Assembly (NCBI RefSeq): GCF_014252295.1
Contig: NZ_CP059215.1
Location: 124,001 to 188,000, forward strand
Source: Blattabacterium cuenoti
GTDB taxonomy: Bacteria; Bacteroidota; Bacteroidia; Flavobacteriales; Blattabacteriaceae
DNA: 64,000 nucleotides
Direction of reading: 5' to 3'
Shown here: piece after piece, positions 8,523 through 13,201 of the stretch
Position numbering within the stretch: position 1 is the first letter of the stretch
Layout: each line of letters opens with the position of its first letter
Notes under the pieces: generated by a model
What the model saw: only the letters and a program-made list of their open reading frames with translations
What the model was told of the DNA's origin: nothing
Databases searched by the model: none
Made by a program: the position numbers and the translations under genes

Positions 8523-9098
8523 ATGGAATGGATTAACTCATTAATCAGTTGTTTTATGATACTTTTTAGTATTATAGACATATTAGGAAATGCTCCGATT
8601 ATTATGGGATTCAAATCAAAAGGGAACATAATAAATACTAAAAAAGTTATAATCAGTTCTCTTGTTATATTCTTATCTTTTCTATTTTTAGGACAACCTA
8701 TGCTAAAAATCATTGGAGTAGATGTTCACTCTTTTTCTGTAGCAGGCTCCATAGTCTTGCTTTTGATAGGTTTAGAAATGATACTAGGAGTAGATTTTCA
8801 CAAGGTTACAGAAAATGCTCAAACTTCTATTGTTCCAATAGCCTTCCCTCTTATAGCGGGACCTGGTTCTTTAACAACCTTAATTTCATTAAGAACAACT
8901 TACGATGTAAACATTATTCTTTTATCTTTGATACTTAATATGATAGTTGTCTATTTCGTAATAGATAGATGTGATTTCATAGCTAAAAAAATAGGAAATA
9001 GTGGTTTAGATATACTCAAAAAAATATTTGGAATTGTTTTATTAGCTTTTGCCGTTAAAATATTTGGAGCCAATGCAGGGCAATTGTTTCAACAATAA
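8523..9098 (+). CDS. MarC family integral membrane protein
   Basis: This 191-residue hydrophobic protein has about six membrane segments. It carries the family features ILGNAPIIMGF near the N-terminus, FLFLGQPMLKIIGVDVHSFSVAGSIVLLLIGLEM in the middle third, and PIAFPLIAGPGSLTTLI before the last helices. These match the MarC/UPF0056 family, whose transported substrate is not established. I choose ATG at 8523 rather than the TTG at 8517. The 213-bp gap upstream suggests its own promoter. Its 3' end overlaps the convergent rnpA reading frame by 10 nt. Confidence 0.9.
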   Translation: MEWINSLISCFMILFSIIDILGNAPIIMGFKSKGNIINTKKVIISSLVIFLSFLFLGQPMLKIIGVDVHSFSVAGSIVLLLIGLEMILGVDFHKVTENAQTSIVPIAFPLIAGPGSLTTLISLRTTYDVNIILLSLILNMIVVYFVIDRCDFIAKKIGNSGLDILKKIFGIVLLAFAVKIFGANAGQLFQQ

Positions 9099-9447
9099 TA
9101 TCTTTTTATTTTATTGAAAATTTTTTTTACAGATTGATTGATATTTTGATACTTAGGAAGGTATCCCCCATTGTAAATCAAAATGAAAAAAAAAATTTTT
9201 TTTTTCATTTTCTTTTCCAATAGAAGTTTATTCAACAAAAAACAAGCTCTTAATAAACGTTTTATTCTATTTCTGTGAACTGATTTCTTAAATATTTTTT
9301 TTTTACTACAGTTCCAGTTAATTTGATTAACGAACTTTTTTCAGAATTTGTTTCTTCTGATAAAAAAATACAAGAAACTGGATCTACTAAAAAATATTTT
9401 CCATTTTTTAGAACTTTATCAAAAATTTTCTTACTTTTCATTTGCAT
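9089..9447 (-). pseudogene. rnpA: Ribonuclease P protein component, frameshifted at an A10 tract
   Basis: RnpA is the protein subunit of RNase P, which trims tRNA 5' ends. From ATG 9447 (or GTG 9465) the frame reads KSKKIFDKVLKNGKYF and continues to an A10 tract (plus strand T10, 9295-9304), then stops at 9262. Adding one A restores VVKKKIFKKSVHRNRIKRLL, with the RNR signature, and an open frame to TGA at 9089 (for example FILIYNGGYLPKYQN). The restored protein is about 119 residues, the normal family length. The gene therefore appears intact except for one base. Polymerase slippage on A10 could rescue it, since RNase P protein is normally essential. It overlaps marC at the 3' end and lies directly after fbp. 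Confidence 0.85.
9180..9211. repeat. 32-bp perfect palindrome with A10T10 core inside rnpA
   Basis: Positions 9180-9211 read the same on both strands, with ten As (9186-9195) followed by ten Ts (9196-9205) at the centre. The palindrome lies in the C-terminal half of the rnpA frame, where it encodes a KKKIFFF run. Such a tract is intrinsically bent and prone to replication and transcription slippage. Confidence 0.9.
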
Positions 9448-11908: not shown

Positions 11909-12693
11909 TTCCTCTGTCTAACAATTTCATATATTATTACGGACATTGCATGACTTACATTCAATGAATCAACACTCCCAAACATAGGAATAGTTATGAT
12001 TTTTTTTGACTTTTTTAACCAAAAATTAGATATTCCCTTATTTTCTGAACCGAAAACAACGGCTAATTTGGAATAATTTAGTTTAGTTCTATATAAATTT
12101 TTCGCTTTTTTATGATGGTAAAATCCTGTTGAAACAATTTTTACTTTGTTTTTTTTTAACCAGAGAAAAACAGATTCTATTTTTTCTATGAAAATTTTTC
12201 TTGTAAAAACACTTCCTAAACTACACCTGATGATATTAGAATTATAAATATAAGTTTTCATATTACATAATATAATAAAATGAATTCCTGTAGCATCAGC
12301 TATTCTTAATATAGCTCCTATATTACCAGGTTTTTCGATCCCATCTAGTATGAGAATTAAAGAATCATTAATTATTTTTTCATTTTTTAATTGATTTGAA
12401 ATAAATTTTTCTTTAAAGAAAGCAATAATTCCTCCTGAATTTTCTCTGTATGCTAATTTTTTAAATATTTCTAGACTAATTAAAAAAGTAATAGAATGAT
12501 ATGACTCAATCATATTATACTCATGGAATATCTTTTTGCATATGAATATTTTTTTTGGGGAAAAATTTCCTTTTATAGCCATATCAAATTCTTTTATTCC
12601 TTCAACAATAAATCCGTTGATAGAATTTTTATTTTTATAAACTTTTATTAAATCTTTAATTTTTGTATTTTGCAGACTTTGTATCTTTATCAT
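11896..12693 (-). CDS. TrmH/SpoU family RNA 2'-O-methyltransferase
   Basis: This 265-residue protein contains the SPOUT knot motifs: LILILDGIEKPGNIGAILRI (motif 1), VVFGSENKGIS (motif 2) and PMFGSVDSLNVSHAMSVIIYE (motif 3). An N-terminal substrate-binding domain (about 1-95) resembles the TsnR/RlmB type and includes FIVEGIKEF. The enzyme methylates a ribose 2'-OH in rRNA or tRNA with S-adenosylmethionine, but the exact target cannot be assigned from sequence. Its start is only 11 nt from the divergent dCMP deaminase start, so their promoters must lie inside each other's coding regions. Confidence 0.9.
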   Translation of the reverse strand: MIKIQSLQNTKIKDLIKVYKNKNSINGFIVEGIKEFDMAIKGNFSPKKIFICKKIFHEYNMIESYHSITFLISLEIFKKLAYRENSGGIIAFFKEKFISNQLKNEKIINDSLILILDGIEKPGNIGAILRIADATGIHFIILCNMKTYIYNSNIIRCSLGSVFTRKIFIEKIESVFLWLKKNKVKIVSTGFYHHKKAKNLYRTKLNYSKLAVVFGSENKGISNFWLKKSKKIITIPMFGSVDSLNVSHAMSVIIYEIVRQRNYST

Positions 12694-12704
12694 TTATTTT
12701 AGAT

Positions 12705-13156
12705 ATGGATTCTAATATAGATATAGAATATATGAAATTGTCTGTTGAACAATCAAAATTATCTTTTTGTAAAAAAAAAAAGTAGGAGCTGTTATCGTTA
12801 AAAATAATCAAATAATATCTTGTGGATACAATAAAACTCCAAATGGATTTGATAATATATGTGAAAAAAAAAATGGAGAAACTAAGTGGTATGTAATGCA
12901 TGCAGAGGAAAATGCAATTTTAAAACTTTCTTCTTCATCTTTATCTTGTAAAGGTGCATCTATATACATTACACATTTTCCATGCCCAAAATGTTGTAAA
13001 TTAATTTATCAATCAAAAATCAAAAAAGTTATATATATACACGAGTATATGAAAAACGATAAAGGAATGAATTTTTTGAAAAAATTGAAAATAAAAATAG
13101 AAAAATTAAACCCAGGTGGCGAAAATGGTATACGTTCTGGACTCAAAATCCAGTGA
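12705..13156 (+). pseudogene. Deoxycytidylate (dCMP) deaminase, frameshifted at an A11 tract and running into tRNA-Leu
   Basis: The family converts dCMP to dUMP, the substrate of ThyA. From ATG 12705, 22 codons lead to an A11 tract (12771-12781) followed by TAG in that frame. One extra A restores KKKKVGAVIVKNNQIISCGYN and then the zinc site: MHAEENAIL (His and catalytic Glu) and HFPCPKCCKLI (two Cys). Everything downstream is open. Family proteins end near the IEKL at about 13108. Here the frame continues 15 residues into the tRNA and stops at TGA 13154-13156. It is either a recent pseudogene or rescued by slippage on the A tract. Confidence 0.85.
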
Positions 13157-13192
13157 TTTTACATCATGCGGGTTCGAATCCCGCCCTGGGTA
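13110..13192 (+). tRNA. tRNA-Leu(CAA)
   Basis: An 83-nt class II tRNA. The acceptor stem 13110-13116 pairs with 13185-13191 over 7 perfect base pairs, with discriminator A at 13192. The anticodon stem 13137-13141/13149-13153 encloses the loop CTCAAAA, with anticodon CAA at 13144-13146 (codon UUG). A long variable arm (TGAT/ATCA) and a T arm with the loop TTCGAAT follow. CCA is not encoded, consistent with the CCA-adding enzyme at 56.4 kb. Its first 47 nt overlap the dCMP deaminase reading frame on the same strand. Confidence 0.95.
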
Positions 13193-13201
13193 CTTTTTGA
13201 A

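Follow-up and report, generated by a model that had tools for sequence, protein, structure and literature searches.

A dCMP deaminase gene one base out of frame at a poly(A) tract in about two thirds of Blattabacterium genomes and its probable rescue by transcriptional slippage

Introduction

Can a gene that lacks a single base in a long run of A still be a working gene and, if so, at which step of its expression is the reading frame corrected? This question is raised by a dCMP deaminase locus in a stretch of 64,000 nucleotides (the window) from a Blattabacterium genome of 624,952 bases (~625 kb). A preliminary description of the sequence had noted that ATG 12705 leads through an A11 tract into TAG with the remainder of the deaminase one frame away, a reading that the window DNA bears out. 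Slippage-corrected poly(A) frameshifts have been described in Buchnera and Blochmannia (Tamas 2008 and Wernegreen 2010, as cited in the Blochmannia vafer paper, PMC3017870). Genes of this sort commonly enter annotations as pseudogenes, and estimates of gene loss and metabolic models built for reduced symbionts may be in error as a result. Blattabacterium is an endosymbiont of cockroaches, and the age of the association has been put at over 200 million years (PMC9603385).

Results

The Deaminase Locus and Its Product

From ATG 12705 on the forward strand, 22 residues are read up to the TGT codon at 12768-12770, and the A11 tract that follows is continued by GTAGGAGCT in the window DNA (Table 1). 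The unshifted frame from this ATG gives MDSNIDIEYMKLSVEQSKLSFCKKKK and terminates at the TAG beside the tract. The -1 frame begins with GTA at 12782, runs uninterrupted to TGA 13154-13156 and contains both HAE and PCPKC.

Table 1. Coordinates of the deaminase, tRNA-Leu and rnpA features in the window.
Feature	Position	Strand	Remark
rnpA (RNase P protein) C-terminal part, shifted frame (IFKKSVHRNRIKRLLRA...)	9089..9294	-	sequence comparison across genomes
rnpA A10 tract, one base short	9295..9304	-	puts rnpA out of frame
rnpA N-terminal part	9305..9447	-	family by eye from conserved sequence, no family search
dCMP deaminase N-terminal part, ATG to TGT (MDSNIDIEYMKLSVEQSKLSFC)	12705..12770	+	conserved across genomes
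A11 tract, 12-nt in-frame length minus one	12771..12781	+	zero frame AAA AAA AAA AAG
dCMP deaminase C-terminal part, -1 frame, zinc-site motifs HAE/PCPKC	12782..13156	+	conserved to ~13110
TAG stop of the unshifted frame, directly 3' of AAG	12783..12785	+	overlaps Val codon GTA
tRNA-Leu (CAA)	13110..13193	+	overlapped by final 47 nt of deaminase frame

The read-through product scores 86.7 bits against PF00383 (cut-off 25), its best solved relative is the deoxycytidylate deaminase 4p9c, with an alignment from end to end (E 1.3e-33, residues 5-135), and the zinc-site motifs HxE (HAE) and PCxxC (PCPKC) are both found in it. The claim that correction of the frame yields an intact zinc deaminase is thus upheld, and the motifs are kept in all 32 out-of-frame copies described below. 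Against the ComEB equivalog TIGR02571 the product reaches 88.5 bits, below the curated cut-off of 219.45; it is related to ComEB and is not filed as such, and we therefore name it a dCMP deaminase of the PF00383 family. Because the deaminase frame enters the tRNA-Leu gene, the conserved enzyme stops near residue 135. The overlap with the tRNA (13110-13156, 47 nt) is shared by the window's genome with its near relatives, and in most other genomes the frame terminates before the tRNA. In a genus-wide family search of the 49 assemblies, no dUTPase was found in the assembled window's genome. The family was above the cut-off in only 12 of the 49, mostly on small second contigs (plasmids), and in G002, G016 and G017 it lies on the main contig near 138-140 kb.

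Tract States and Their History Across the Genus

The deaminase gene is present in 49 of 49 Blattabacterium genomes, including one of 511 kb. With tract length counted between TGY and GTN GG, 30 genomes have A11, nine A12 and two A10 (G007 and G046), seven carry interrupted in-frame 12-mers and one is broken. The gene is therefore in frame in 16 of the 49 (the nine A12 tracts and the seven 12-base stretches interrupted by G, T or C) and out of frame in 32, about two thirds. Retention of the gene in every genome together with an exact A11 in 30 of them is not a matter of chance. In the family outgroup, G053, the gene is in frame and has no poly(A) run. In G045, the symbiont of Blatta orientalis (name after PMC6039017), the 5' end of the deaminase is duplicated and a nonsense codon stands ahead of an A10 run.

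The history of the tract was followed on a FastTree phylogeny of 13 neighbouring genes, rooted at the midpoint and not by an outgroup. Genomes with A11 fall to either side of this root, and one deep clade of eight genomes is A11 throughout. Fitch parsimony places A11 at the root, with 12 changes among the four states and at least eight between in frame and out of frame. These eight changes compare with a mean of 13.6 when the labels are shuffled, and one of 1,000 shuffles was as low. From this distribution of tract sequences we infer that the out-of-frame state is ancestral to the genus and was followed by several repairs. The position of A11 in the tree and under parsimony argues that the break is old, has been repaired several times and is not recent in the window's genome. 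The preliminary description had proposed slippage rescue or a very recent break; since A11 straddles the midpoint root and is the parsimony root state, the second proposal is ruled out, and the first stands as the best explanation. A six-rate model of tract change also favours repair over re-breaking (2.4 per unit for 11 to 12 vs 0.02 for 12 to 11). However, a large 10 to 11 rate and a root state divided between A10 and A11 show this model to be weakly identified, so that only the parsimony result is relied on here.

Selection on the Two Halves of the Gene

None of the 32 out-of-frame copies has a second lesion, and the frame of the downstream half is open in each of them. Relaxed selection downstream of the tract, which had been named in the preliminary description as the pattern that would count against rescue, did not emerge when dN/dS was estimated with codon models. 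Omega downstream of the tract is 0.106 in the 30 A11 genomes and 0.097 in the 16 in-frame genomes, and for the A11 set the likelihood falls by 381 log units when omega is set to 1 (lnL -4662.3 vs -5043.6). The window's own clade gives 0.082, with lnL -678.8 against -714.3 at omega = 1 (35 log units). In the deep all-A11 clade the estimate is 0.043, an exact value that is not meaningful since synonymous change is saturated there. Pairwise comparisons of the window's genome with close relatives agree in direction with purifying selection; with G025, for example, dN is 0.078 and dS 0.393.

For the same A11 taxa, omega is 0.099 for trmH and 0.100 for rplY, which the deaminase resembles, and it is 0.068 for thyA and 0.033 for ureC. 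The upstream half is constrained as well, with an omega of 0.148 in the A11 genomes for the last 19 codons of the N-terminal part. In a simple simulation of neutral drift over 0.4 substitutions per site, none of 2,000 trials was left stop-free.

Other Genes Broken at Poly(A) Tracts

A view of the whole of the window's genome was taken for A11 runs, of which a pattern search, with short stretches read, gave 29. Most of these lie inside frames that stay open, and three further genes are one base short at A11: murD, nadD and a PD-(D/E)XK nuclease-like gene, at contig positions ~261257, 324274 and 570615. In the genus at large, the murD frame is broken in 23 of 48 genomes. For nadD this is the case in 32 of the 37 genomes with both anchors, 25 of them in the shift direction of the deaminase A11 and seven in the other. 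For rnpA it holds for 31 of the 38 genomes with both halves found, of which 15 need +1 and 16 need -1/+2. The anchors failed in 11 genomes each for nadD and rnpA, and the rnpA of G042 was counted in frame by arithmetic, yet a TAA sits between its halves. The deaminase itself divides between the two shift directions as 30 A11 and two A10 copies.

The downstream halves of the out-of-frame nadD, murD and rnpA copies are open, as they are in the deaminase. Among the copies measured for the deaminase, murD and nadD, none that is out of frame has an A-run shorter than nine, and several in-frame copies have shorter or interrupted runs. A further tract, in pyrEF ~5 kb from the deaminase, is A10-A11 and is in frame in ~40 genomes. 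In G046, the murD frame is reopened by the loss of two bases 3' of its A9 run, which looks like a compensating indel.

Discussion

An error that is common to about two thirds of a genus, in a gene whose protein is intact, makes it very probable that the frame is corrected while the gene is copied or read. The reading that we consider probable from the comparison of these sequences is that of a working dCMP deaminase whose gene has lacked one A from an early stage of Blattabacterium evolution and is rescued by slippage of RNA polymerase. The polymerase would slip on the long A-run and produce a mixed pool of mRNAs, in which molecules with one extra A (A12) would be translated into the full-length enzyme in sufficient amount, and uncorrected molecules would yield a 26-residue peptide ending at the TAG beside the tract. 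The site of slippage would thus be transcription and not the ribosome. Shifts in both directions occur among the broken genes, which fits slippage by RNA polymerase, whereas -1 shifting by the ribosome cannot give the other direction.

What is known of slippage elsewhere bears on this reading from both sides. A review of frameshifted genes in aphid and ant endosymbionts gives corrected transcripts of 12-50% (PMC5009743), and avoidance of slippage-prone runs in the coding regions of many bacterial genomes sets in at nine (PMC1088944). Against this, in a transcriptome-wide survey of Buchnera, insertions were concentrated in A/T runs and no indel was seen to restore a frame (PMC5574713). Rescue is also probably partial, since pyrEF keeps its A10-A11 runs in frame and the out-of-frame state is therefore not free. 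The contrast with pyrEF suggests that high-demand genes keep their frame and that low-demand genes tolerate a broken one. The runs of the 32 out-of-frame copies have no interruptions (P ~0.045 even with copies taken as independent). As AAG is seldom used in these genomes, this lends weak support to the idea that the run must be complete.

The same correction seems, from the open downstream halves, to operate in several other genes, some of them essential. A more far-reaching version of this idea, which we put forward tentatively and regard as possible but on balance doubtful, is that the frame at runs of about nine or more A may be nearly irrelevant for rnpA, nadD, murD and the dCMP deaminase. 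Slippage of RNA polymerase would be so frequent as to keep every frame represented, and the tracts would have wandered between the three frames over more than 100 million years with the proteins conserved. The genus as a whole would then rely on errors of transcription for some essential functions.

Of the other ways to account for the locus, -1 frameshifting by the ribosome is the one to be taken most seriously. Programmed -1 frameshifting on A_AAA_AAG is used by dnaX of E. coli and by IS3-family elements. The same heptamer lies in the zero frame of the deaminase (window 12776-12782) with UAG immediately 3', and a shift into the GTA frame would give a product identical to that of an A12 mRNA. 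The A9 copies of murD carry A_AAA_AAG too, and the only tRNA-Lys among the 32 tRNA genes found in the window's genome has the anticodon UUU. The Val codon that creates the UAG (12782-12784) is GTA in 45 of 48 genomes, whereas elsewhere in the gene GTA accounts for 54 of 211 Val codons and GTT is the usual choice. However, GTA is just as common at this position among the in-frame genomes, and the adjacent TAG is missing from G025 and G030. The heptamer and the nearby stop are shared with E. coli dnaX and IS3, but no stimulatory structure was detected here among folds free of pseudoknots: the downstream fold is weak and no stronger out of frame than in frame (mean z -1.0 vs -0.8), and no extra synonymous constraint is seen beside the tract. 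Copies shifted in the opposite direction (two A10 copies of the deaminase, seven of nadD and 16 of rnpA) would not be rescued by it. We therefore regard ribosomal shifting as an unlikely sole explanation, and one that may contribute at the deaminase and murD.

Long homopolymers also invite the suspicion that the true tract is A12 and was called one base short. The in-frame state is commoner among assemblies that consist of a chromosome and a plasmid contig than among those with a single contig, and in the Blattella germanica symbiont, G042 (name after PMC6039017), the deaminase, murD and nadD all keep their frame, unlike those of its A11 relatives. The correlation with assembly type is partly phylogenetic, however, and A12 was called at this very tract in nine genomes. 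In the same assemblies, the 13 neighbouring genes hold 153 in-frame interior runs of at least ten A with a single break. Were long runs under-called in general, these would be broken too, and so would the pyrEF runs that are in frame in ~40 genomes, which makes an artefact unlikely. The tract states track the phylogeny, and separately published genomes are out of frame too, with A11 in the case of the Panesthia symbiont (G017) and A10 in that of Nauphoeta (G046; names after PMC6039017 Table 1). Breaks of murD at A9 and breaks of nadD and rnpA in the opposite direction do not fit an under-called A12 either. Taken together, we hold an error of sequencing or assembly to be very improbable.

The proposal that the deaminase is a recent pseudogene in every lineage with A11 deserves still less credence. 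Mutation is indeed very frequent in long A-runs, and G045 carries a disrupted 5' end of the gene, but A11 is common to deep clades, omega is ~0.1, none of the 32 out-of-frame copies has a second lesion where neutral drift leaves no trial stop-free, and the gene is kept in all 49 genomes, the one of 511 kb among them. Equally implausible is a separate translation of the downstream half by reinitiation or from an internal start: ATG 12896 is in frame, but this codon (VMHAEE) is Ile or Leu in other genomes, the product would be without the first part of the deaminase domain, and the upstream half is under constraint too.

Rescue by slippage of RNA polymerase, the explanation that we prefer, is of a kind already known. 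As in Buchnera and Blochmannia (PMC3017870), a single indel in a long A-run is common to species, the gene is otherwise intact and selection is not relaxed. Blattabacterium is likewise an AT-rich, vertically inherited insect symbiont. Unlike them, it belongs to the Bacteroidota and not to the Gammaproteobacteria, most of 49 genomes are out of frame at one tract, and the rnpA and nadD tracts occur in all three frames across species, with several independent repairs. Closer in lineage is Walczuchella, a flavobacterial endosymbiont of scale insects, for which genes with frameshifts in homopolymer tracts were listed that may still work according to the authors (PMC3971599). In that report, which differs from ours in resting on one genome and being without comparative or selection tests, the genes were annotated as pseudogenes. 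In dnaX of Thermus thermophilus, transcriptional slippage on nine A's produces a frame mixture from one gene (PMC1088944). The Thermus gene is itself in frame, and a shorter second product arises from slippage, whereas in Blattabacterium slippage would be needed for the full-length one. No description of poly(A) slippage rescue in Blattabacterium was found in the literature searched, which covers a part of the Blattabacterium genome papers. The advance over earlier cases is one of scale, which is genus-wide, within the Bacteroidota and with the same tracts in different frames.

With tracts in three frames and in-frame controls such as pyrEF, the 49 genomes offer a test of how far error-prone transcription can supply a protein and of where selection sets in. 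They also amount to a natural experiment on the repair of a gene that is out of frame and on how the repair is then locked when the run is interrupted.

A further feature of the locus concerns its promoter. The deaminase (+) and a trmH-like gene (-) are divergent with starts 11 bases apart (12693-12705), and each promoter must therefore sit inside the opposite gene.
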